NCBI RefSeq assembly: GCF_913058315.1
Contig: NZ_CAJXQY010000030.1
Span: forward strand, 1-41,202
DNA: 41,202 nt
Direction: 5' to 3'
Source: an uncultured Alteromonas sp.
GTDB lineage: Bacteria > Pseudomonadota > Gammaproteobacteria > Enterobacterales > Alteromonadaceae
A program made the position numbers and the translations under genes. Positions 165 to 16,533 of the stretch are shown piece after piece (the stretch's first letter is position 1; each line of letters begins with the position of its first letter). The notes under the pieces are model-generated. The model was not told the origin of the DNA and made no database searches. It saw only the letters and a program-made list of their open reading frames with translations.

Positions 165-1541
165 ATGCAAACGCCAGCTTTGACAGATTTGGACAGTAAA
201 TATCTCGTCCATCCGGTATCCAATTTTCGCGATCATCAGGAAAAAGGCGTGAAGATACTGACATCCGGTAATGGAGCCTGGCTAACCGCCGCCGATGGCA
301 ATACTTATCTGGATGCCTTTGCCGGGCTATGGTGTGTCAATATTGGCTATGGCCAGCAACGCGTAGTGGATGCGGCTATCAAGCAGATGACCACCCTGCC
401 TTATGCTACCGGCTACTTTGGCTTTGGCAGTGAACCCGCCATTGTATTAGCAGAAAAACTGGTTTCAATGACACCGGCGTCACTCCAGCACGTGTATTTT
501 TCGCTGGGCGGTTCTGACGCCGTAGATGCCGCCATTCGTTACATTACCCATTATTTTAACGCCATTGGTAAACCAGCTAAAAAGCATATCATTTCGTTAC
601 AGCGTGGCTACCATGGATCTTCGTCTACCGGCGCAGGGATTACCGGATTACCGGCTTTTCATGCCAATTTCGACGTCCCTACTCCACAACAGCATAAGAT
701 AAGTTGCCCGTATCTGTATCGCAGCGAATTCGCTACCGGCGAAGAGCTTATTGCCGCATCGGTTAAGGAACTGGAAGACAAGGTTGCTGAGATTGGCGCC
801 GATAATGTAGCAGCGTTCTTCTGCGAACCCGTGGTAGGCTCCGGTGGTGTAGTAGTCCCCCCTAAAGGCTGGCTGAAAGCCATTGCCGATACCTGTAAAC
901 GGTTAGGCATTCTGTTTCTGGTGGATGAGGTAATTACCGGCTTTGGCCGTACCGGCAAAATGTTTGCCTGCGAGCATGAAGGGGTTGAGCCTGATTTAAT
1001 GACCATTGCCAAAGGCCTGACCTCCGGTTATGCCCCCATGGGCGCCGTGCTGATGTCAGACGAAATATTTAATGGCATTGCAGATGGCCCTAACAAAGCG
1101 GCTGTGGTGGGTCATGGACAAACCTATTCCGCGCACCCGGTCAGTGCCGCCGTAGCTCTGGAAGTGATTAAAATTTACGAAGAAAGCATGCTGGCTCATG
1201 CACAGTCAGTAGCGCCTTATTTTGAAGCTAAGTTGCAGGCCTGCATGGCTCATCCTTTGGTTGGCGACGCGCGCAGCATTGGCTTGTTAGGCGCCATCGA
1301 ACTGGTTGCCGATAAGGCGACTAAACGCCAGTTTGACCCGGCACTGAAACTGAATGAAACCATTGCTGATATCGCCTGGAAACACAAACTTATCTTCCGT
1401 GCGTTTGGCGACAATATCCTCGGCTTTGCGCCGGCACTGTGCTTCACCGAATCAGACTTCGACGCGTTGTTTGAACGCTTACAACTCACCCTCGATGAAG
1501 TACTGCAACTCAACATTGTAAAACAGGAGATGAAAGGCTAA
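165..1541 (+). CDS. Class III PLP-dependent aminotransferase (omega-amine/GABA type)
   Basis: A 458-residue fold-type I aminotransferase of the class III (omega-aminotransferase) family, expected to move an amino group from a terminal amine (putrescine, GABA, beta-alanine or similar) to pyruvate or 2-oxoglutarate in the cytoplasm. Visible family features are the N-terminal AFAGLWCVNIGYG block (51-63), the EPVVGSGGV segment (221-229), the cofactor aspartate in FLVDEVITGFGRTGK (Asp254) and the Schiff-base lysine in IAKGLTSGYAPMG (Lys283). The length is typical. The ATG is preceded by TGGAAA about 8 nt upstream. Its stop overlaps the next start (TAATG), so it is the first gene of a three-gene operon with a D-malate/tartrate dehydrogenase and succinate-semialdehyde dehydrogenase. 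That fits amine or GABA catabolism to succinate. The exact substrate cannot be read from sequence. Confidence 0.88.
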   Translation: MQTPALTDLDSKYLVHPVSNFRDHQEKGVKILTSGNGAWLTAADGNTYLDAFAGLWCVNIGYGQQRVVDAAIKQMTTLPYATGYFGFGSEPAIVLAEKLVSMTPASLQHVYFSLGGSDAVDAAIRYITHYFNAIGKPAKKHIISLQRGYHGSSSTGAGITGLPAFHANFDVPTPQQHKISCPYLYRSEFATGEELIAASVKELEDKVAEIGADNVAAFFCEPVVGSGGVVVPPKGWLKAIADTCKRLGILFLVDEVITGFGRTGKMFACEHEGVEPDLMTIAKGLTSGYAPMGAVLMSDEIFNGIADGPNKAAVVGHGQTYSAHPVSAAVALEVIKIYEESMLAHAQSVAPYFEAKLQACMAHPLVGDARSIGLLGAIELVADKATKRQFDPALKLNETIADIAWKHKLIFRAFGDNILGFAPALCFTESDFDALFERLQLTLDEVLQLNIVKQEMKG

Positions 1542-2617
1542 TGACCACTTATAACATCGCCGTGATTGCCGGTGACGGCATTGGTAAAGAAGTCATGCCT
1601 GAGGGCCTGAAAATTGTTCAGGCAGCGGCTGAAAAGTTTGGTTTAAGCCTCAACTTCCATCATTTTGACTGGGGCGGTTGCGACTACTACCTCGAACATA
1701 ACCGTATGATGCCGGAAAACTGGAAAGACATCGTGGGTGATATGGACGCAATCTACTTTGGTGCCGTTGGCTGGCCTGATACGGTACCGGATCACATCTC
1801 ATTGTGGGGCTCTATTCTTACTTTCCGTCGTGAGTTTGACCAGTACATCAACATGCGCCCGGTCCGCACTTTTGAGGGCGTTAAATGTGCGCTTTCAACA
1901 CCAAAGGCCGACGAGATCGACTTTATCGTGGTACGGGAGAACACCGAAGGTGAATATTCTTCCATTGGCGGCATCATGTATGAAGGCACCGATCGCGAAG
2001 TGGTATTGCAACAATCGGTATTCAGCCGTCATGGTACCGACCGGGTATTAAAATACGCCTTCGAAACCGCCATGCGCCGTGAAGCAAAAAACGTAACGGT
2101 GGCCACCAAAAGCAATGGCATGGCTATTAGCATGCCATGGTGGGACTCACGGGCTGATGCAGTCTCTGCAGATTATCCGGAAATCAGCTGGACCAAGCAG
2201 CACATAGATATTCTTTCAGCCCGTTTTGTCATGACCCCCGAACGCTTCGATGTGGTGGTGGCCTCTAATCTGTTTGGCGACATACTGTCTGACCTGGGTC
2301 CGGCGTGCACCGGCACCATCGGTCTGGCACCTTCAGCCAACCTGAATCCGGAGCGTAAATTTCCCTCTTTATTCGAACCCGTCCATGGCTCTGCGCCGGA
2401 CATCTACGGTAAGAACATCGCTAACCCGATTGGCATGATCTGGTCAGGCGCCTTAATGCTGAGCTTTCTGACCCAGGATAGTGGTGCAGGTGCCAAAGCA
2501 CACGATGCAATCGTTACCGCCATAGAGAAGGCCCTCAAAGGTGCCACGCTGACCCCGGATTTAGGTGGCGAGGCCAGCACTCAGGCCATGGGCGAAGCAA
2601 TCCTGGCGAATCTGTAA
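1541..2617 (+). CDS. Tartrate dehydrogenase/decarboxylase or D-malate dehydrogenase
   Basis: A 358-residue member of the isocitrate/isopropylmalate dehydrogenase superfamily, closest in character to TtuC/DmlA. These enzymes oxidise and decarboxylate D-malate or tartrate with NAD+ and Mn2+/Mg2+. Visible features are the N-terminal IAGDGIGKEVMPEG (9-22), the substrate-loop sequence LWGSILTFRREFDQYINMRP, the VVRENTEGEYSS motif, and the metal/NAD region SNLFGDILSDLGP followed by LFEPVHGSAPDIYGK. The length is normal for TtuC. It is coupled to both neighbours by TAATG overlaps (start at 1541, stop at 2617). A product such as pyruvate could serve as amino acceptor for the upstream aminotransferase; that link is inference. 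The choice between D-malate and tartrate is not decidable by eye. Confidence 0.87.
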   Translation: MTTYNIAVIAGDGIGKEVMPEGLKIVQAAAEKFGLSLNFHHFDWGGCDYYLEHNRMMPENWKDIVGDMDAIYFGAVGWPDTVPDHISLWGSILTFRREFDQYINMRPVRTFEGVKCALSTPKADEIDFIVVRENTEGEYSSIGGIMYEGTDREVVLQQSVFSRHGTDRVLKYAFETAMRREAKNVTVATKSNGMAISMPWWDSRADAVSADYPEISWTKQHIDILSARFVMTPERFDVVVASNLFGDILSDLGPACTGTIGLAPSANLNPERKFPSLFEPVHGSAPDIYGKNIANPIGMIWSGALMLSFLTQDSGAGAKAHDAIVTAIEKALKGATLTPDLGGEASTQAMGEAILANL

Positions 2618-4107
2618 TGAGTAAAACGAATCAATTTGAGCTAGCCTCGCGGCTAACTGAACCGGCGTTGCTGAATACTAAAAATTTCATCAATGGTAAG
2701 TGGCAGAAAGCCGTTTCGCAGCAAACCTATGAAGTGGTGAATCCTGCTACCGGCACCAGTATCGCCGGCGTTGCTAACAGCGACGCCATAGATGCGGCAA
2801 ATGCCGCTCGTTCTGCAAAAAAAGCCTTTACCAGCTGGCAGCTAACCACACATCGAGAACGGGCCACCCTGCTCGAGAAATGGTATCAGCTTATCCAGCA
2901 ACATACCGACGATATCGCCTGTATTATGACGTCTGAGCAAGGTAAACCCTTAGCTGAGGCCAAAGCCGAGGTGGGCTACGGTGCATCTTACGTAAAATGG
3001 TTTGCTCAGCTGGCCATGCAACTACGCGGTGACATCCTGCCAAATAGCGTACCCGGGCGCCTGCAAACGGTCGAAAAACGCCCGGTCGGCGTGGTCGCCG
3101 TGATTACCCCCTGGAACTTCCCGTTTGCCATGCTGGCTCGAAAAATAGCGCCGGCACTGGCCGCTGGCTGTACCGTGGTGGTTAAGCCTGCCGAAGATAC
3201 GCCATTAACCGCACTGGCTATGGCTAAACTGGCCGAACTGGCCGGTTTCCCGCCAGGCGTAATTAATGTAGTCGCCGCCTCACGGGAACAAACCGCTATC
3301 GCCGTGGATGCCTGGCTTAAAGACGTACACGTCAAAAAATTAAGCTTTACCGGTTCGACACAGGTAGGTCGTTACCTGGCAGAACGCTCGGCAAGCTCGC
3401 TGAAAAAGCTCTCATTAGAACTCGGGGGTAATGCCCCCTTTATTGTGTTTGAAGACGCCGATATTGACGCAGCCATCAGCGGACTGCTGGCCGCAAAGTT
3501 ACGTAACGGCGGTCAAACCTGTGTCTGCCCTAACCGTATTTATGTGGCCAATGCTATTTACGATGAGTTTGCCAGCCGCTTAGTCGACAAAGTTTCAGCA
3601 ATGAACGTTGGCGACCCCTTTGACGACGACACGCAGATTGGTCCGATGGTCAATCAGAAAGCCATCGATAAAATTAGCGGTCATGTAAGGGATGCCGAGC
3701 AACAGGGCGGTATTTTGCTGTGTGGCAGCGCGGAACCCCGGGACGGATTGTACTTTGAGCCTGCGGTCATTGCCGAAGCGCATAACAAAATGGCACTGTT
3801 CAGTGAAGAAACCTTCGGCCCGGTGTTACCACTGTTCCGCTTTAGCAGCGAAGAGGAAGCCATCGAAGAAGCGAATAATACCGAATATGGTCTGGCGGCG
3901 TATTTTTATACCCAGGACCATCGCCGTATCCATCGCGTTAAGGCACAGCTTCAGGCTGGCGTGATTGGTATAAATGAAGGTGCGGTGGCCAGTGAAGTTG
4001 CGCCATTTGGGGGCGTTAAGGCCTCAGGCTATGGCCGTGAAGGCTCGCATTACGGACTGGACGATTTTCTGCAAATCACTTACGTGTGCGAAGGCAACCT
4101 CTATTAA
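2617..4107 (+). CDS. gabD: NAD(P)-dependent succinate-semialdehyde dehydrogenase
   Basis: A 496-residue aldehyde dehydrogenase of the GabD type, oxidising succinate semialdehyde to succinate in the cytoplasm. The family blocks are in order: ITPWNFPFAMLARKIAPALAAG (about 163-184), FTGSTQVGR, the general-base glutamate in LSLELGGNAPF (Glu268), and GGQTCVCPNR with the nucleophile at Cys302 and a second cysteine two residues on, as in redox-switched SSADHs. The C-terminal GYGREGSHYG block is also present. Its start overlaps the stop of the dehydrogenase gene (TAATG), so it is the last gene of the operon. With the aminotransferase it would complete a GABA-type route into the TCA cycle. Glutarate-semialdehyde dehydrogenase is the closest alternative. 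Confidence 0.88.
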   Translation: MSKTNQFELASRLTEPALLNTKNFINGKWQKAVSQQTYEVVNPATGTSIAGVANSDAIDAANAARSAKKAFTSWQLTTHRERATLLEKWYQLIQQHTDDIACIMTSEQGKPLAEAKAEVGYGASYVKWFAQLAMQLRGDILPNSVPGRLQTVEKRPVGVVAVITPWNFPFAMLARKIAPALAAGCTVVVKPAEDTPLTALAMAKLAELAGFPPGVINVVAASREQTAIAVDAWLKDVHVKKLSFTGSTQVGRYLAERSASSLKKLSLELGGNAPFIVFEDADIDAAISGLLAAKLRNGGQTCVCPNRIYVANAIYDEFASRLVDKVSAMNVGDPFDDDTQIGPMVNQKAIDKISGHVRDAEQQGGILLCGSAEPRDGLYFEPAVIAEAHNKMALFSEETFGPVLPLFRFSSEEEAIEEANNTEYGLAAYFYTQDHRRIHRVKAQLQAGVIGINEGAVASEVAPFGGVKASGYGREGSHYGLDDFLQITYVCEGNLY

Positions 4108-4198: not shown

Positions 4199-5101
4199 TT
4201 AGTGCGCGATGCCAAAACTACTGGTTAATATTGCAGTTATTACTATCACCAGCGTACCGATAAACGCCTCGCCAACGATAGACTTTCTAACTTTGTAACG
4301 GTCTTCGCTGAGTGTCAGGTTAGCCACCAGATAGCACTTATGATACGCCGCAAAACCTAACATCACTGCAACCAGCACTAATTTACAGCCCATCACGAAC
4401 AAATAGTCATTATTAGCCTCTGTGCGAACGTTTAGCAGCAGTAACGCAAACAAACCAGCACCGCTAACTAACAACAACCCGACCCATACAGCGGCCTGAT
4501 TACCATAAGCGTGAAGCTGCGTTCGCAGCAACTCAACATCCTCGAGCCGGCACAGGCGAATAAGCGGGTACAAACTACCCAGCCACCATGCAGCCATTAA
4601 CACATGTAACGCCACCAGCAATTTGGCAAGCCAGTTTGCTTCGGCTGTGTGCCCGCTGAAGGTAAATGACGCCGCAAACAATGCACTGGTCAAAAGCCAG
4701 CTACATACCCACGCTAATGATGTATTCGAGCCGTTATAAAGCTTATTTCCCCAAGCAGTACACAGCATTGCCATTATGATAGCCAACAGTCGGAATTGTG
4801 TTTGTGTACCGATGCTCGATTGCCAGCTGATTTGCAGCATCAGGCTATCGATGATGCCGCTGACCCCATCGTCCAGCAGCATACCAGCTGAGAGCGGCAC
4901 TACCGCAGCAGCCCCCACCAGGCTTATGAACAAACCCGCCCACTGCGCACGTAAGAGAGGTTTATGCCAATCAGCATGCACGGTAAGATCATTGCTACGG
5001 CCATGACGCAACAACAGGCGCATGGCATTCATGCCGATAAAACTGACAACGCCAAGGTAGTAAGCTACCTTGGCCAGGGAGAGAAGTGCGAGCCAGCCCA
5101 T
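4199..5101 (-). CDS. copD: Copper resistance membrane protein CopD
   Basis: A 300-residue polytopic inner-membrane protein of the CopD family, with about eight hydrophobic segments. Recognisable features are the opening LAKVAYYLGVVSFIGMNAMR helix, the QTQFRLLAI segment, FTFSGHTAE with its conserved histidine, the LHVLMAAWWLGSLYPL helix and a late CKLVLVAVMLGFAAYHK helix. CopD proteins work with periplasmic CopC in copper uptake or tolerance. It lies 21 nt after copC as the last gene of the metal block, just before a bidirectional terminator. No good Shine-Dalgarno sequence precedes the ATG. Instead the start codon sits in the loop region of a perfect inverted repeat (5090-5112), and a second one follows within the first codons. 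Translation may therefore depend on ribosomes arriving from copC. Confidence 0.86.
   Translation of the reverse strand: MGWLALLSLAKVAYYLGVVSFIGMNAMRLLLRHGRSNDLTVHADWHKPLLRAQWAGLFISLVGAAAVVPLSAGMLLDDGVSGIIDSLMLQISWQSSIGTQTQFRLLAIIMAMLCTAWGNKLYNGSNTSLAWVCSWLLTSALFAASFTFSGHTAEANWLAKLLVALHVLMAAWWLGSLYPLIRLCRLEDVELLRTQLHAYGNQAAVWVGLLLVSGAGLFALLLLNVRTEANNDYLFVMGCKLVLVAVMLGFAAYHKCYLVANLTLSEDRYKVRKSIVGEAFIGTLVIVITAILTSSFGIAH
5051..5074 (-). promoter_or_regulatory. RNA hairpin inside the first codons of copD
   Basis: GCCAAGGTAG, 4 nt, CTACCTTGGC is a perfect 10-bp inverted repeat in copD codons about 10-17. With the hairpin at 5090-5112 it places two stable stems at the start of the gene. It would fold in the mRNA and could slow or gate translation. 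This is seen in sequence; the function is inferred. Confidence 0.5.
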
Positions 5102-5112
5102 CAGGCTGGCTC
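5090..5112 (-). promoter_or_regulatory. RNA hairpin enclosing the copD start codon
   Basis: GAGCCAGCC, CATCA, GGCTGGCTC is a perfect 9-bp stem with a 5-nt loop. On the coding (-) strand the loop reads TGATG, so the copD ATG lies across the loop and the first stem base, in the 21-nt gap after copC. It should hinder independent initiation on copD and couple it to copC translation. No U-run follows, so it is not an obvious terminator. Confidence 0.55.
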
Positions 5113-5122
5113 GTTGATAAAG

Positions 5123-5506
5123 CTAATGGTCAGCATGATGACTATGGCCAGACAAAATGGTGAAAGAATACGAGTCTTCCATTTTGTGACCGTCATTACC
5201 CATTACTGTCCATTCAACGTCGTACTCATCGGCGGGCAGTGCAGGCACAGGAAAACTCACGGTTTTAGCGGCCTTAACGACGGGTTTAAAACCAAAGTCA
5301 ATCGCAGTGCCCTGGCTATTTATCAGCACTAACTTAATCAAACGTACCTCTGCTGAAAAGGTTAGTGACAGCTTATCAGGCGCCATTGAAACTTCACTTT
5401 CTCTTGGCGGGACAGTCTGCGCTAAATGCACATGCGCAATGGCAGTACTACTGAACAATCCCAAAGCAAGAACCAGGGGTTTAATCCAGTTTGAACCATT
5501 TAACAT
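5123..5506 (-). CDS. copC: Periplasmic copper-binding protein CopC
   Basis: A 127-residue exported CopC/PcoC-family protein with an Ig-like beta-barrel that carries Cu(II). I chose the ATG at 5506 because TAAGGAG lies 7 nt upstream and the protein then opens with a clear signal peptide. The same frame extends upstream into the preceding gene, but without family similarity. The signal peptide ends TAIA, so the mature protein would start HVHLAQTVPP, the N-terminal histidine used for Cu(II) by CopC. The family motif VMGNDGHKMEDSYSF is present (usually ..S.DGHPv.G..F.V), giving the second histidine and aspartate. The C-terminus SGHSHHADH is histidine-rich. It follows the DUF1624 gene by 10 nt and is followed by copD. 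Confidence 0.92.
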   Translation of the reverse strand: MLNGSNWIKPLVLALGLFSSTAIAHVHLAQTVPPRESEVSMAPDKLSLTFSAEVRLIKLVLINSQGTAIDFGFKPVVKAAKTVSFPVPALPADEYDVEWTVMGNDGHKMEDSYSFTILSGHSHHADH

Positions 5507-5516
5507 ACTGTGCTCC

Positions 5517-6680
5517 TTAAAAATATTTGACCAGCGGGTTACTGCTGTTGTGTTTGAATTTAGCGAAGGCCTTAGTCGGCAAGTAGAGGGCAACCGCCAG
5601 AATGATGGCAACCAACCAGATTTGCCAAACGTAATCAAAAGCAAACAAGTCGCCGTAGTTTGGCCCTACTACCGCCAGCACAATTCGGTAGCTGACCAGT
5701 AGCACGAATAAATGCACGATGTAATAGAACATGGGTGCGGAGCCAAAGGTTTCCACTGCTTTAGTAAGGCGATTATTGACATTTTCCAGACCGGCCAGCA
5801 CCAGGAACGCAGCGCCCAGGGTAAATAGCACATAGTCCAGTGATGGCGGATACTTGGTGTAGTTAATGAAGGACATTACCGTATGAATGGCATCCTGCTG
5901 CGCTTCCCATGGCAGCACTTCACCGTAGATATTAAAGCCGCGTAATACCAGCAACAGAGCCCACAGCCCCAATCCCAGTTTAAGCAGGGTTGACTGGCGC
6001 TTTGCCCCTTCAACAGCGCGGGAATACAGCGGCCCCATGCAGTAACCAAGTAAGATCACGCCAATCCAGGGTAATACCGGATAGGAGGCTTTAATGCGAA
6101 AACTCTCTGAGGTAAATATAATCCCACGATCATGCAAAATAGCCCAGATGGTATAGCCGGTTTCATCAGGATTAAAACTAATAGGGCTTAATAAGTTATG
6201 GGCACAAACAATCAGCAAACCTAATGCAAATATTGCTTTATAAGGCAATTTACACAATACGGATAAAGCAACCATGCTCACACCAATTGCCCACATAACC
6301 TGCAACCACAGGGTGTCGTAGTTGCCCATCCATAACCAGTTAATTATGGCGATCTCAACAAAGATGATAAACAGCCCACGTTTAAATAGGAACGGTGTTG
6401 CTGAACGAGGTGCTTTGTTGAAGGGATGTGAGTAAAGCCAGGCGGAAAGACCGGTTAGAAACACAAACACCGGCGCACAGAAATGTGCGGTGGTTCGGGT
6501 AAAAAATAGTTCCGGGCTGGTAGTCTCCAGATCCATCGGATCGCTCACATTTTGATGGAAGAAGAATCGTTCCCGAACATGATCAACCAACATAAACAGC
6601 ATCACTAATCCACGCAGGATATCGATGGATGCCACCCTTTTTTTTATCACCGCTGCGGGTGTTTGTCCTACTTCACTCAT
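5517..6680 (-). CDS. DUF1624 (HGSNAT-like) multi-pass membrane acyltransferase family protein
   Basis: A 387-residue polytopic membrane protein of the DUF1624 family, related to the transmembrane domain of heparan-alpha-glucosaminide N-acetyltransferase. The diagnostic first helix reads ASIDILRGLVMLFMLVDHVRER, with the conserved D-RG and DH residues, followed by about ten hydrophobic segments. Some members are thought to carry acyl groups across the membrane; the substrate here is unknown. I chose the ATG at 6680, which has AAGGTGAG upstream, over an in-frame GTG at 6695. Its stop is 10 nt from the copC start, so it is co-transcribed with copC and copD. A membrane acyltransferase-like gene inside a copper cluster is unusual, and I cannot assign its role. 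Confidence 0.8.
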   Translation of the reverse strand: MSEVGQTPAAVIKKRVASIDILRGLVMLFMLVDHVRERFFFHQNVSDPMDLETTSPELFFTRTTAHFCAPVFVFLTGLSAWLYSHPFNKAPRSATPFLFKRGLFIIFVEIAIINWLWMGNYDTLWLQVMWAIGVSMVALSVLCKLPYKAIFALGLLIVCAHNLLSPISFNPDETGYTIWAILHDRGIIFTSESFRIKASYPVLPWIGVILLGYCMGPLYSRAVEGAKRQSTLLKLGLGLWALLLVLRGFNIYGEVLPWEAQQDAIHTVMSFINYTKYPPSLDYVLFTLGAAFLVLAGLENVNNRLTKAVETFGSAPMFYYIVHLFVLLVSYRIVLAVVGPNYGDLFAFDYVWQIWLVAIILAVALYLPTKAFAKFKHNSSNPLVKYF

Positions 6681-6704
6681 TGTTCTCACCTTCACTCAAA
6701 GAAC

Positions 6705-6729
6705 AGGGCTAACCCGATTGGTTTGCCCT
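6705..6729 (-). promoter_or_regulatory. Intercistronic hairpin between the DUF4198 and DUF1624 genes
   Basis: AGGGC T AACC, loop CGATT, GGTT T GCCCT forms a 9-pair stem with one internal mismatch. On the - strand it lies 20 nt after the DUF4198 stop and about 25 nt before the DUF1624 start, followed by GTTCTTTG. It could be a leaky terminator or an mRNA-stability element that lowers expression of the downstream DUF1624-copC-copD part. Confidence 0.4.
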
Positions 6730-6748
6730 CTATTTTTATTGTTTGGTC

Positions 6749-7474
6749 TTATTCTGGCGCGTGTGGTAATACGAACGACAAAGTCGCCAGCAATTCGTAT
6801 TTATCGATGATTTTAGGACGGTCAGTAGGCGCATCATAGGTTGCAACCACGACATTTAAACCCTGGTTGCGGATTTCGAATGTGACTTTACCGTCTTTAT
6901 CAGACACTACAGGTTCGGCATCCGGATCATTAACAAAATCACGTTTAACCAGTGCGCCCTGAACCGGCTCTCCTTTAAATAACACCTGGTAGGTTTGTTG
7001 TTCACCCATCATCAAAGGAAATTTGTCACCAACCGGCACAATCTGTAATACCTGGGTATTGATGTGCGGAATTTCACGCAATGGACCTCGTAAGTGTACA
7101 GCGTATTTAATTGTTTCTTCGCTTAAAATAGCGTCAGGTACTTCATCACGGCCTTTGCCTATCCAGTGACCTTCCCCGGTATTTGACCAGATACCATTAT
7201 TTAGCACAGCTGACACTGCAACGGGGTAATCATCGCTGGTTACCAATAATAATGGGCCGGAAGGGGTTAACTCTACATCCACGGTATCCCAGTCTTCATC
7301 AAAGCCCGTGACGGAGCCAACTTTGGGCAACCGTAAAACCGCATCCAGATCGTCGGCGCCGACGCCATAAATCATCGCCAGTTGCTTAGAGCGTTCGGCA
7401 AACCAGATACCGTGCGCACTGGCTTGCGCCGTAATTAAAGCAGTCAGTGCAATAACACAAATTTTCTTCAACAT
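6749..7474 (-). CDS. DUF4198 periplasmic metal-uptake-associated protein
   Basis: A 241-residue exported protein resembling the DUF4198 family, whose members accompany nickel/cobalt or other metal transporters. The N-terminus (LKKICVIALTALITAQASA) is a typical signal peptide with an ASA cleavage motif. The mature protein would start HGIWFAERSK, again with histidine at position 1. The rest looks like one or two beta-sandwich domains, with the C-terminal segment (VQGALVKRDFVNDPDAEPV..DKDGKVTFEI) typical of a carboxypeptidase-regulatory-like fold. The ATG has AGAGGAAA upstream. It is 15 nt from the upstream membrane-anchored protein gene, in the same operon. The bound metal is not evident from sequence. 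Confidence 0.78.
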   Translation of the reverse strand: MLKKICVIALTALITAQASAHGIWFAERSKQLAMIYGVGADDLDAVLRLPKVGSVTGFDEDWDTVDVELTPSGPLLLVTSDDYPVAVSAVLNNGIWSNTGEGHWIGKGRDEVPDAILSEETIKYAVHLRGPLREIPHINTQVLQIVPVGDKFPLMMGEQQTYQVLFKGEPVQGALVKRDFVNDPDAEPVVSDKDGKVTFEIRNQGLNVVVATYDAPTDRPKIIDKYELLATLSFVLPHAPE

Positions 7475-7489
7475 TGTTGTTTCCTCTGT

Positions 7490-8053
7490 TTAATTCTTTG
7501 TTTTAAGTGATTGGTAAAAACCGGCCACGGTCACCGTAACGGTAACCGGAGAGTCTGACATGTTCTGCCAGTACCAGCCGTGTGTGCCCTCAAATGGTGC
7601 TTTGAAAATGCCGTTATCAGCGGCTATTGCTGTTGCTTTTTTATAACTTTCAAACTCGTTAGGGTTATCGAGCTTTTCACCGTGCATATCCATGTACACG
7701 GCTAACCCGTCTGTTCGCCAACTGAAGCTAACCCCGTTGTCTTTCTGCATTAACGCCTTCACTTCCACCCCTTCATATTCAGGGATTTCAATGGTGATCG
7801 TTTTGCTGGCAAATTCTCCCTCACTGCCAGCCAGAATAAACGCAGCATCTGACTTGATTTCCATATCTTCACCTGCCGGAGCACTGTTCAGACTGGTTAA
7901 CCCCAGCAAACCACCAATGCCGGTGAAGTCTTTATTGTATTCGGCAGGCAACACAACGGTGACAGATAGAACTACCGCCAGCGCCGTTGCGATAACCAGC
8001 CCCTTAATAACTTGTTGATTTGATACATCGACATGCTGTTGTTGAGTTGTCAT
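7490..8053 (-). CDS. Membrane-anchored periplasmic protein of the HupE/copper block (unknown function)
   Basis: A 187-residue protein with a short cytoplasmic N-terminus (MTTQQQHVDVSNQQ), one transmembrane helix (about residues 17-37, VIKGLVIATALAVVLSVTVV) and a periplasmic domain. That domain contains EIPEYEGVEVKALM, SFSWRTDGLAVYMDMHGEK and GTHGWYWQNMSDSPVTVTVT. The His- and Trp-rich HGWYWQN segment resembles metal- or cofactor-contacting motifs, but I know no defined function. Similar genes next to hupE are usually annotated only as transmembrane anchor protein. The start at 8053 is chosen because the ATG overlaps the hupE stop as ATGA; an in-frame ATG four codons upstream lies inside hupE. 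Confidence 0.7.
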   Translation of the reverse strand: MTTQQQHVDVSNQQVIKGLVIATALAVVLSVTVVLPAEYNKDFTGIGGLLGLTSLNSAPAGEDMEIKSDAAFILAGSEGEFASKTITIEIPEYEGVEVKALMQKDNGVSFSWRTDGLAVYMDMHGEKLDNPNEFESYKKATAIAADNGIFKAPFEGTHGWYWQNMSDSPVTVTVTVAGFYQSLKTKN

Positions 8054-8745
8054 ACCGTGCCCCACATATATCCGGAAAGTTGAAAGATTGTCAGTGTGAC
8101 ACCGGCGGTAACCAGTGCCATATTGGCCGCAAAGGCATAGCGCATAAAATGCTGGCTTTTACGTAGCAGGATAATGAACATTAACATGCCAAAAAGAGCA
8201 ATCATCTGGCCCATTTCCACGCCAATGTTAAATGAGATTATGTTGCCTACCAGGCCATCAGCCGACAGAGTGAAGTCCTGCAATTTGGTCGCCAGACCAA
8301 AGCCATGGAACAGCCCGAACACCAGTACTGCAGCCTTGGTATTAATGGAAAATCCACAAAAACGCGGAAAGAAACCAATGTTATCAAGGGCCTTGTAAGC
8401 CACTGATAAACCAATAATGGCATCGATGATATACGCGTTGATATGAATGCCTGACAGCACGCCGAACAACAATGTCACGCTATGACCCAAAGCGAACAAG
8501 GTGACGTAAATTCCCACATCTTTGAGTCTGTAGAGGAAGAAGATGACGCCGAGCAAAAACAATAAGTGATCATAGCCGGTCACCATGTGTTTCGCGCCGA
8601 GATAGATATAAGGAATAATATGCAGTCCTGAGCTGGACTCTAAAAATGCCCTGTCTCCCTCAGCTACGCCATGAGCACTCGCCAGCGGCATCACTAAAAG
8701 TAATGTCATCGCCAGCAAGAGTTGAGTAATCAATCGCATCGTCAT
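8050..8745 (-). CDS. hupE: HupE/UreJ-family metal permease
   Basis: A 231-residue HupE/UreJ-type inner-membrane protein; the family is associated with nickel entry for hydrogenase or urease. It has a cleavable signal peptide ending PLASA, so the mature protein would begin HGVAEGD. The family metal motif H-x5-DH is visible in AKHMVTGYDHLLFLLG, and the later helices carry ALGHSVTLLFG and FGLFHGFGLATKL. About six transmembrane segments follow the signal peptide. It begins 3 nt after the stop of the small periplasmic gene and ends in an ATGA overlap with the anchor-protein gene. No urease or hydrogenase gene is present in the window. In this copper-linked setting the metal might be copper rather than nickel, but that is inference. 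Confidence 0.85.
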   Translation of the reverse strand: MTMRLITQLLLAMTLLLVMPLASAHGVAEGDRAFLESSSGLHIIPYIYLGAKHMVTGYDHLLFLLGVIFFLYRLKDVGIYVTLFALGHSVTLLFGVLSGIHINAYIIDAIIGLSVAYKALDNIGFFPRFCGFSINTKAAVLVFGLFHGFGLATKLQDFTLSADGLVGNIISFNIGVEMGQMIALFGMLMFIILLRKSQHFMRYAFAANMALVTAGVTLTIFQLSGYMWGTV

Positions 8746-8748
8746 GGC

Positions 8749-9126
8749 CTACAGCTTGTATTTACCAACGATTTTTGAAACGCCATCCTGCAGGGTTAAC
8801 ATGGCAAGTACCTGACTAGCCCCCGATAAATTTACCGGCGCACTAAAACGATTGCCTTCTGCAGCGGCTGTTTCAATCATTTCTTTGCGATCCTCGCCTT
8901 TGACTTTCAGACGCAAGCCCAATTCTGCTGCATTGAGTGGTTCGCCGTCATAAAACACCCAAACTGATACTTGATCACCGTCCTGCTTCATCTCAAATGA
9001 ATACTCACCAACGATCTTTACAACGCCGCCATACTGAGGCTCCGTATTGCCGTGAGCCAAGGCCTGAGTTGATACCAACGGGGAAGCTAAGAGTGCTGCT
9101 ATCAGCAACAAGTAATGTTTACGCAT
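8749..9126 (-). CDS. Small periplasmic protein with predicted N-terminal histidine (unknown family)
   Basis: A 125-residue exported protein that heads the cop/hup block. The signal peptide runs MRKHYLLLIAALLASP..QALA and predicts a mature start of HGNTEPQYGGVVKIVG. The remaining 100 residues look like a small beta-sandwich (SFEMKQDGDQVSVWVFYDGEP, RFSAPVNL, VLAMLTLQDG). I do not recognise a named domain. It has a strong AGGAGA ribosome site 7 nt before the ATG, and its stop is 3 nt from the hupE start. Position, export and an N-terminal histidine suggest a metal chaperone or sensor feeding HupE or CopC. That is inferred only from context. Confidence 0.72.
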   Translation of the reverse strand: MRKHYLLLIAALLASPLVSTQALAHGNTEPQYGGVVKIVGEYSFEMKQDGDQVSVWVFYDGEPLNAAELGLRLKVKGEDRKEMIETAAAEGNRFSAPVNLSGASQVLAMLTLQDGVSKIVGKYKL

Positions 9127-9332: not shown

Positions 9333-10289
9333 CTAAAAAGGTAAGATCAGTTCGATATAATGATGAATACTGTCTATAGACAGTAAATTGGTAAACAGCA
9401 CTGCGGCGGCCAGCAGGCTAATGATTACCGGGATCTGAAAATGAAATTTTGCCGGCTCCAGCAACGCATGAACACGTTGACTAACAAAGTCTTCGCCAAA
9501 TGAAAAAGCGAAGGGAACTGGGCAATTTTGCGCGGATTTCCGGTAAGCAACCAACGCAGAAGCTACAGTCAGAGCGCCAACTTTCTCTGCGGCCTGACTA
9601 TCTGCCCGCAGCTCTGTCGCGAGCTCAAAAGCTTGTCGTAATTGCCGCCGTATGGCCCGCGGATAATAAGCGCTAACAATGCTAAACAACCACTTCTGTA
9701 ACGGATCAAAATAGCGTTTATGCCCGGCTTCATGTGCAAGAATGCAAGCAAGCTCATCGCGTGTAACACGCTCTGTCAGACCAGTAGACAGGTAAACCAT
9801 TGGTCGCAACATGCCCGCAGTAAATGCCAGCGGAATGGAAGTCTCAAGCAAAATATAATTATTACCATTAAGTTGAGCAGCATTGGCGTCAGCCATCAGG
9901 CTAACACTTTGCAAACTCTGCTTATGCTGATTCAATAAGCGAATGTGGCGAAGCAAAATCCAGACTGTCGCAACAGCCCAAATCACCAGTAAACTGCCAT
10001 GCCAGGACAACCACTCAAATTCAAACAGGTGATGCCAGTGAATAAACATCTCCAGCGGTGGCCACATTACGTCAGTAAAGGCATAAAGCATAAATGCCCC
10101 ACTGCAAAGCGCCCCTACGAGCACAGGTAATAACACCCAGGAGGTTAACAATGCTTTTTGCCAACCGGCAGGAAGTAGCGAAACCTTGCGCACTAAAAAA
10201 CCACTGACTAAAAGTTGCAGTAAGAGTGCAAACCAGGCACTCACCACCGCCAGGCTCAGTACATTGAGGAAAATGGCTGTATCAAACAT
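9333..10289 (-). CDS. M56 (BlaR1-type) membrane metallopeptidase without a sensor domain
   Basis: A 318-residue inner-membrane zinc peptidase of the M56 family. Three hydrophobic segments lie in the first 110 residues. The catalytic LACILAHEAGHKRYFDP follows, with HExxH at 186-190 and a downstream ELATELRADSQAAE segment as third-ligand region. One more hydrophobic segment lies near the C-terminus (FQIPVIISLLAAAVLFTNLL). BlaR1/MecR1 proteins are nearly twice as long and carry an extracellular penicillin-binding domain after this last helix; here the protein ends there. It starts 1 nt after the blaI1 stop, with AAGGAG inside the end of blaI1, so the two are coupled. Its likely job is to cut or inactivate the paired BlaI repressor in response to a signal sensed by itself or a partner. 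Confidence 0.88.
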   Translation of the reverse strand: MFDTAIFLNVLSLAVVSAWFALLLQLLVSGFLVRKVSLLPAGWQKALLTSWVLLPVLVGALCSGAFMLYAFTDVMWPPLEMFIHWHHLFEFEWLSWHGSLLVIWAVATVWILLRHIRLLNQHKQSLQSVSLMADANAAQLNGNNYILLETSIPLAFTAGMLRPMVYLSTGLTERVTRDELACILAHEAGHKRYFDPLQKWLFSIVSAYYPRAIRRQLRQAFELATELRADSQAAEKVGALTVASALVAYRKSAQNCPVPFAFSFGEDFVSQRVHALLEPAKFHFQIPVIISLLAAAVLFTNLLSIDSIHHYIELILPF

Positions 10290-10290
10290 T

Positions 10291-10680
10291 TCAGCGCTCC
10301 TTATTCAGTCGCAGCCGTTCACGCTGCGCCTGAATCATTGACTCCAGAGCATCAAGCTCCTGTGCTTCAAATTGTCCTGAATAAGATTGGAATGCGTTAA
10401 TAAACACATTCTCATCATTGGCGGTAAAATCTCGCGTAACACTATCAATAAGCCTCGCGATTAATCCTTCCCGCTCTACCCGTGGCGAATAAAAATAGGC
10501 ATGTCCCTGCTTGGTTCGATCGAGTAATTGTTTTTTATAGAGACGATCCAACGTGGTCTGGATGGTATTGAGGTTGCCACCTTCATGACGGGTGAGGGCA
10601 GCAAATACTGTTTTGACATCGGCTGGCGACCGTTGCCATAAATAATTCAGTACTTTTTTCTCTAATTCCCCTAACACCAT
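10291..10680 (-). CDS. BlaI/MecI/CopY-family repressor 1
   Basis: A 129-residue winged-helix repressor of the BlaI/MecI/CopY family. Recognisable features are LGELEKKVLNYLWQRSPADVKTVFAAL at the N-terminus, GGNLNTIQTTLDRLYKKQLLDRTKQGHAYFYSP as recognition helix and wing, and a C-terminal dimerisation region of about 50 residues. I chose the ATG at 10680; a TTG precedes it directly, and AAAGGAAA lies upstream. It pairs with the M56 peptidase in a two-gene unit placed between the RND operon and the cop/hup block. It is about as long as repressor 2 (16534-16914) and similar in sequence. No copy of the AAAACCGA-type repeat was found directly upstream of it. Confidence 0.92.
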   Translation of the reverse strand: MVLGELEKKVLNYLWQRSPADVKTVFAALTRHEGGNLNTIQTTLDRLYKKQLLDRTKQGHAYFYSPRVEREGLIARLIDSVTRDFTANDENVFINAFQSYSGQFEAQELDALESMIQAQRERLRLNKER

Positions 10681-10737
10681 CAAACGTTTCCTTTAAGTTC
10701 ATATCTAGTCTTGCATAACCACGGCAAAGTGAATGGC

Positions 10738-10830: not shown

Positions 10831-15216
<4,386 letters not shown>

Positions 15217-15220
<4 letters not shown>

Positions 15221-16500
15221 TGCGAAAGCGAAGTGCCGGTAAGGCGCTGAATTTCGATGTGTTGCAGGTGCAAGCTAAGGTAAGCGTCGAGCAGCTGTGA
15301 TTGTGCGCCTAGCAACTCGCGACGCAATTCACTCCACTGGCTGTAACTTAACTGACCTTTTTCAAAAGCCTGTCTGGCTTCTTGTAACGCAGACTCAAGA
15401 GTCGGCACAATGTGATTGTCGACGGTTTGAATAACGTGATAAGAATGCTTCATCTCGTGCAATAAAACGTAGAGTTGCGCATCGAGTTGCTGCAGCAGAG
15501 CGGTTTGCTGACTGTCGAGTACAGCCTGTTTAGCTTGTAAAGCTGCCACGGTACCTGCGTTATAATCCTTGCTCCCCCAGGGAATCGAAACTTCGGCGAC
15601 AAAACCAAAATCATCGGAGGCTTCATAGCGTCTTAGCCCGGCAGAGAACTGCCATTGAGGGTGTGCCTCAATTCTGGCTTTTTCTATTTGTGACTGTGCA
15701 ATGCGCTGAGCAGATGCGAACCGCTGTACACCGGGATTTTCAGTTAGTCTTTTAACATAGTCCCGGGTGGCCGGTATCGGGGGTAAATCGAGTAAATTAC
15801 CGGTTAAGGTAAAGTCGGTATCGGGCTGCCCCCAAAGCGCGCTTAGCTGGTACTTAGACGCCTTGATATCGTGCTCTGAATCCTCGACAGCGAGCTCCCG
15901 CCTAAGTAATTCGGCTTCGGCCAGTTTTCGTTCAATCACCGAGCTTTTCCCTGCAGCAAGGCGCTCATCAATTGCCTTAATGACCTCCTTTGCTTGTTTT
16001 ACGGCCAGCTTATTTAAGGTTAGCCGCTCCATTTTGACCAGAACCTCGATAAACTGCCGAGCCGCTACTGCCGACAAATCCAGCGCTTTGATTTCCTGAT
16101 CGAGCAAAAGCTTACCTGACTCACTTTGTATGGCGTAAACACGACTTTTAATCTGCTCATGTTCCAGTATCCATGAATACGTCAGCGTGGTCTGCGTACT
16201 TTTTAACGCGCTGTAATTGCCCGTCCCCAGAGCATCTTCGACCGTCAGGCCGATTTGCGGACGCTGTGCTGTGGCGGCCTGTTTCAAGCGCCCTTCTAAC
16301 ACGGCCTTCTGTTCAACGAACACCTGCAGGGCCGGATGATTATTCAATGTCAGGCTCACAACATCGCTCATTGATAGCGTTATTGGTGCTGGCGTTTTTT
16401 CAGCGAATACCGACAGGCTTAACAGGCACGCGACGAGCCCAACAAAAAACCGACCAGCAATCGGTTTTTTAACTACTATTACTTTGAGGTTTCTCTTCAT
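15217..16500 (-). CDS. TolC-family outer-membrane efflux protein, CzcC/CusC-like
   Basis: A 427-residue outer-membrane channel protein of the OEP/TolC family. The signal peptide ends SVFA (mature EKTPAPITLS), followed by two long helical repeats. The first runs from DVVSLTLNNHPALQVF with an AEAELLRRELA-type coiled coil. The second runs from PGVQRFASAQRIAQSQIEKARIEAHPQWQFSAGLR to the end. I chose the ATG at 16500; a GTG lies just upstream. It is the first structural gene of the pump operon, 33 nt after blaI2, and overlaps the adaptor start. An operator-like repeat (16444-16470) is embedded in its signal-peptide codons. Confidence 0.9.
16444..16470. promoter_or_regulatory. BlaI-type candidate operator inside the tolC start (site 2)
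   Basis: AAAAAACCGA, CCAGCAA, TCGGTTTTTT is a perfect 10-bp inverted repeat with a 7-nt spacer, starting about 30 nt inside the TolC-like coding sequence. It matches the repeats at 9274 and 16958 in both arms and spacing. It could serve as an auxiliary or roadblock operator. The sequence also encodes the basic signal-peptide region (KKPIAGRFF), so chance is possible but unlikely given three matching sites. Confidence 0.45.
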
Positions 16501-16533
16501 CACATACCTATCTGACTGGGGATTACCCCGCTG

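Follow-up and report, generated by a model that had tools for sequence, protein, structure and literature searches.

The window analysed here is a 41,202-nucleotide contig of an uncultured Alteromonas sp. (NZ_CAJXQY010000030.1), in which seven genes follow one another on the minus strand from position 9126 to position 4199. They encode, in this order, a small exported protein (p125), a short permease of the HupE/UreJ-2 family (HupE), a membrane-anchored protein with a GOLD-like beta domain (p187), a DUF4198 protein, a relative of HGSNAT, CopC, and a CopD-family membrane protein (Table 1). The family matches of HupE (PF13795, 174.5 bits against a cut-off of 24.5), DUF4198 (PF10670, 58.7 against 34) and CopC (PF04234, 69.3 against 23.3) are clear. 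An earlier note on this DNA had placed the array here and had quoted signal peptides ending in Ala and directly followed by His in p125, HupE, DUF4198 and CopC; the array and all four junctions are confirmed, and its interpretation of them is supported in part. The cluster groups several families with a predicted His start with a permease that lacks an anglerase domain and with a constant, sometimes fused, GOLD-domain companion.

HupE and p187 are closely associated. Among 79 distinct cases the two are adjacent in 68 and fused in 10, and the remaining one lies at a contig end; p187 similarly adjoins or is fused to HupE in 64 of the 65 loci fetched through p187 alone, with five places common to both sets. 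The suggestion that this protein, recognised by its HGWYWQN segment, is a further partner is thus borne out in 78 of the 79 cases. The periplasmic domain of p187 is predicted to adopt a GOLD beta-sandwich fold, the protein carries two conserved HG motifs, and a helix at residues 12–39 precedes the beta domain, so that the anchor is N-terminal rather than C-terminal. A C-terminal membrane anchor is typical of the p24 family, and p187 departs from the eukaryotic p24/TMED GOLD proteins in its N-terminal anchor, in being bacterial, and in its link to a metal permease; among the Pfam matches of 25 p187 members at E values up to 1 there is no GOLD or p24 family. The pairing and the predicted fold are among the new findings of this analysis, and neither the GOLD partner nor the cassette of four genes set out below was found described in the open-licence papers searched. 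Relatives of p187 are also present on 390 of 72,556 plasmid records, most frequently of Klebsiella (147); none of them reaches 80% coverage of the query, the listed matches falling in its C-terminal two thirds.

The window HupE is 231 amino acids long and its permease match begins at residue 46, about 20 residues after His25, so that the anglerase domain (approximately 175 residues) is not present. It resembles the Ang-1 and Ang-2 HupE/UreJ-2 anglerases in its PF13795 permease, in the His after its signal peptide and in the proximity of a DUF4198 gene, as seen among the neighbours of Ang-1 HupE/UreJ-2 genes, but it has no metal-binding domain before the membrane part and has a separate GOLD-domain protein alongside (PMC12537917). 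That recent paper describes N-terminal-His metal proteins as a broad class, with an N-terminal His in 79% of DUF4198 proteins (Ni bound with a dissociation constant, Kd, of 18 nM through His1 and His18, Cu not being favoured by the characterised protein), in 100% of HupE/UreJ-2 anglerase domains (Cu, Kd 74 and 62 nM) and in DUF6702, and it cites CopC. Of the four families with a predicted His start seen here, three were therefore already in print, and the principle is not an undescribed one; the new elements are a GOLD-domain partner, a short HupE with a predicted N-terminal His, the recurrence of the cassette across classes, and its association with catabolic genes. The genome also holds, at other places, another DUF4198 gene (G000:C9) and a further HupE/UreJ-2 reading frame, which is longer (G000:C87).

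Cleavage sites were predicted with a crude rule-based predictor that has a distance limit, and the His codons were counted by hand. Cleavage immediately before His, which the earlier note had supposed for all four proteins, is the best predicted site in HupE and CopC and one of two tied sites in DUF4198 (ASA/HG and AQA/SAHG), but is not predicted for p125, for which TQA/LAHGN is returned, ALA/HGN lying beyond the distance limit. In the A. oceani group the −1 residue of this alternative p125 site is Val (APQV/LA) and A/HG is retained, and because of this we base the predicted His start of p125 on conservation. All 74 distinct HupE sequences from loci with p187 carry His at the expected distance, preceded by Ala, Gly or Ser; His25 of p125 is its sole invariant His in all 12 aligned sequences; and the Ala-His pair of DUF4198 is invariant in 15 of 15 aligned sequences and also in 12 of 12 cassette members. 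The DUF4198 alignment drew on 20 loci, of which one is the window, 12 were aligned and seven were excluded, three by selection (L114, L116 and L118, mostly for want of a clean choice of open reading frame) and four as below cut-off. Conservation of this His therefore stands for the three families in these sets of sequences, but weakens in the wider families of HupE (25 of 30 PF13795 loci of the order with Ala-His, judged by eye, L154 being unreadable) and of p125 (see below). As a background, of the 50 signal peptides predicted among 372 genes (400 kb from three relatives) 5 have His at +1, and three or four such proteins in a single operon therefore exceed chance. Across 38 sets around p187 (the window, 35 loci, L101 and L103) the best site places His at +1 in 42 of 143, a figure inflated by related loci; a first signal-peptide rule, used without the background set, had given 38 of 121.

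The DUF4198-p125-HupE-p187 cassette is found in alpha-, beta- and gammaproteobacteria and in four bacterial families, its holders being Alteromonadaceae, Novosphingobium/Sphingobium, Indioceanicola (where p187 lies in two open reading frames) and Massilia. The HGSNAT relative accompanies the cassette in the window, at five related loci and in the sphingomonads Novosphingobium ES2-1, Novosphingobium THN1 and Sphingobium V4; in these three it comes directly after p187. CopC-CopD follows the cassette in the window and the five related loci and is on the opposite strand in Massilia, but was not detected in Marisediminitalea and Aestuariibacter (two of the eight Alteromonadaceae loci) or in the sphingomonad loci. 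The four-gene cassette recurs across classes, with CopC-CopD as an optional part. Other proteins with a predicted His start are found near HupE-p187 pairs: a DUF6488 (PF20098) protein with a predicted Ala-His junction follows the pair at four loci (L038, L046, L047 and L055), and at L061–L065, about 2 kb before HupE, there is a protein whose mature form is predicted to begin with HHG, the L061 copy matching DUF6152.

In the alignment with the mature CopC chain 7bk5 the window His falls on residue 1, and the later Asp-x-His is retained. An N-terminal His is a known feature of the CopC family, and we take His1 and the His of Asp-x-His to be metal ligands. In both of these features and in the downstream CopD the window pair is like known CopC-CopD copper proteins; it is unlike them in standing within a seven-gene array and in being optional across related cassettes.

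Upstream of the array are an M56 protease gene and a BlaI/CopY-like repressor gene, followed by genes that we take to encode a resistance-nodulation-division (RND) permease, presumably of the divalent-cation type from its motif, its adaptor and a TolC-like protein. On the other side, the aminotransferase, tartrate dehydrogenase and semialdehyde dehydrogenase genes converge on the array.

Table 1. Genes of the seven-gene array and its neighbours in the window.
Feature	Position	Strand	Basis and remarks
p125, small exported protein	8749..9126	-	no Pfam family; predicted mature start His25, codon 9052-9054
Short HupE/UreJ-2 permease	8050..8745	-	PF13795 1.6e-51; predicted mature start His25, codon 8671-8673
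p187 (HGWYWQN protein)	7490..8053	-	N-terminal membrane anchor and GOLD-like beta domain
DUF4198 protein	6749..7474	-	PF10670 1.1e-15; predicted mature start His21, codon 7412-7414
HGSNAT_cat / acyltransferase-3 membrane protein	5517..6680	-	PF07786 1.9e-17
CopC	5123..5506	-	PF04234 5.8e-19; predicted mature start His25, codon 5432-5434
CopD-family membrane protein	4199..5101	-	PF05425 2.1e-10
M56 (BlaR1-like) membrane protease, likely regulator	9333..10289	-	PF05569 1.5e-9
BlaI/CopY-like repressor	10291..10683	-	PF03965 9.5e-23; CopY_TcrY 3.6e-10, below cut-off
Heavy-metal RND permease (presumed)	10831..13959	-	open reading frame; relatives upstream of cassette elsewhere
Periplasmic adaptor of RND pump (presumed)	13970..15220	-	gene order
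TolC-like outer-membrane factor (presumed)	15217..16503	-	gene order
Class III aminotransferase (PRK05965)	165..1541	+	761 bits, above cut-off of 729
Tartrate dehydrogenase (TTC)	1541..2617	+	513.6 bits, above cut-off of 470.4
Succinate-semialdehyde dehydrogenase-like enzyme	2617..4107	+	TIGR01780 587 bits, below cut-off of 646

Catabolic genes are a recurrent feature of the surroundings. At least two catabolic gene types occur within about 20 kb at 15 of 18 cassette loci, compared to 0 of 29 loci with HupE-p187 only, 0 of 20 RND-p125 loci (six of which are stretches of just 10–15 kb, the rest being about 19–20 kb) and 1 of 20 random stretches. A first count, with shorter flanks and one query set, had given 11 of 15 against 0/29, 0/20 and 1/20; the second used longer flanks for four sphingomonad loci, three added loci and a second query set, with the same controls rescored. 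The count excludes duplicates (L032, L034–L037) and L033, a locus at a contig edge, and a locus's own queries were not scored for it. The 18 loci comprise eight from Alteromonadaceae, eight from sphingomonads, and one each from Azospirillaceae and Oxalobacteraceae, and because they come from so few families the Fisher values (1e-9, 5e-8 and 1e-6) overstate the evidence. The three loci that fall short are L249, L253, which shows DUF4198 alone and is not a confirmed cassette, and L178, where p187 is split over two open reading frames; the association is thus seen in three of the four families, the exception being Azospirillaceae, represented by L178 alone. One co-directional array of catabolic genes encloses both the cassette and the HGSNAT relative in Novosphingobium ES2-1 and THN1.

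We give about an even chance to the proposal that the core of the array is a system for capture and transfer of a divalent metal (Ni/Co or Cu) at the inner membrane. Soluble periplasmic p125 and DUF4198, and CopC in this clade, would use free N-terminal His residues to bind metal that is set free in the periplasm or reaches it, and hand it to HupE, whose own free N-terminal His would stand at the periplasmic mouth; p187, with its two HG motifs, may be a periplasmic subunit dedicated to HupE and stand in for the anglerase domain that HupE lacks. CopC-CopD would be an added copper branch, and the neighbouring RND pump would remove excess metal. The short HupE with its companion suggests, in a form open to direct test, how HupE permeases receive their metal.

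Several observations weigh against this capture-and-transfer system. The window DUF4198 belongs to the same family as IsDUF4198/NikK (PDB 9gcb) and has His at the position where the 9gcb chain begins, but differs at the second Ni ligand: His18 of 9gcb aligns with a His of a Shinella protein (L188) that aligns without gaps with a Val in the window, and among 12 cassette-type sequences (window included) mature position 18 is Val in ten, Leu in one and Glu in one. His1 is kept and His18 is replaced, and a two-His brace thus fails for the window DUF4198, as it does for p125, where no second conserved His is present among the 12 aligned sequences. The wider p125 family, found in 36 of 398 genomes of the phylum, consists of homologous small proteins directly behind RND permease genes in all 20 fetched loci, yet their predicted start, read by eye, is His in just eight (Asp in eight, another residue in four), which counts against p125 His1 as generally essential. 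Four of the 30 wider HupE/UreJ-2 proteins, all long forms (L144, L149, L150 and L153), lack the His after the signal peptide, and cleavage prediction, as noted, does not settle the site in DUF4198 and is unfavourable to a His start of p125. Finally, RND genes accompany 13 of 29 HupE-p187-only loci and 20 of 20 wider p125 loci, and such frequent efflux neighbours point to resistance rather than import.

This last point leads to a rival that we consider rather unlikely, in which the array is an ordinary heavy-metal resistance island whose independent periplasmic binders each buffer metal without any relay, the neighbourhood reflecting regulation shared with the RND pump. It accords with the RND, adaptor and TolC-like genes upstream of the window cassette, with the position of wider p125 relatives, and with a Citrobacter IncC plasmid (L180) that carries TolC, adaptor, RND, HupE, p187 and DUF6488 genes in a row; against it stand the near-constant joining or fusion of HupE and p187 and the catabolic genes that cluster at the cassette loci and not at HupE-p187-only or RND-p125 loci. 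The copper-specific relay from N-terminal-His proteins to HupE and CopD that the earlier note proposed is improbable. The intact CopC ligand positions, the presence of CopD, the sub-threshold similarity of the repressor to CopY and the Cu preference of anglerase domains (PMC12537917) speak for it, but CopC-CopD was not detected in Marisediminitalea, in Aestuariibacter or at the sphingomonad loci, Ni rather than Cu is favoured by the characterised DUF4198 (PMC12537917), and at L103 the cassette has beside it DmeF, which encodes a Co/Ni exporter (over cut-off), and an RcnR/FrmR-like regulator gene (below cut-off). Together with a NikA-like binding protein at L032 (below cut-off), these genes favour Ni/Co. 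Least probable of all, we think, is that p125 and DUF4198 are cleaved elsewhere and that an N-terminal His is confined to HupE and CopC: the predictor's choice for p125 and its tie for DUF4198 are what this rival would lead one to expect, but the A. oceani group does not keep the alternative p125 site, the alignments show Ala-His with few exceptions or none, and the 9gcb chain begins at the His equivalent to that of DUF4198. We also note that the DUF4198 alignment profile matches chains of PDB entries 9mhi–9mho (1.5e-14) that are named phosphoribosylglycinamide formyltransferase, a label that therefore looks wrong.

The catabolic association suggests a tie between metal handling and the breakdown of organic ligands, and we offer one speculative and rather doubtful extension of the capture-and-transfer system. 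A TonB receptor would import a complex of metal with an organic amine or metallophore, the N-terminal-His proteins would strip the metal and pass it on to the HupE-GOLD permease, and the ligand would be degraded by oxidases, an aminotransferase, aldehyde and tartrate dehydrogenases and an amidohydrolase encoded nearby. On this reading HupE and its GOLD-domain subunit would make up a metal permease of a new, two-part type. Further along the window, the segment 31359-32261 encodes a protein with a Ser-rich linker and an HIHFRV segment, which we take to resemble an intradiol dioxygenase-like protein.

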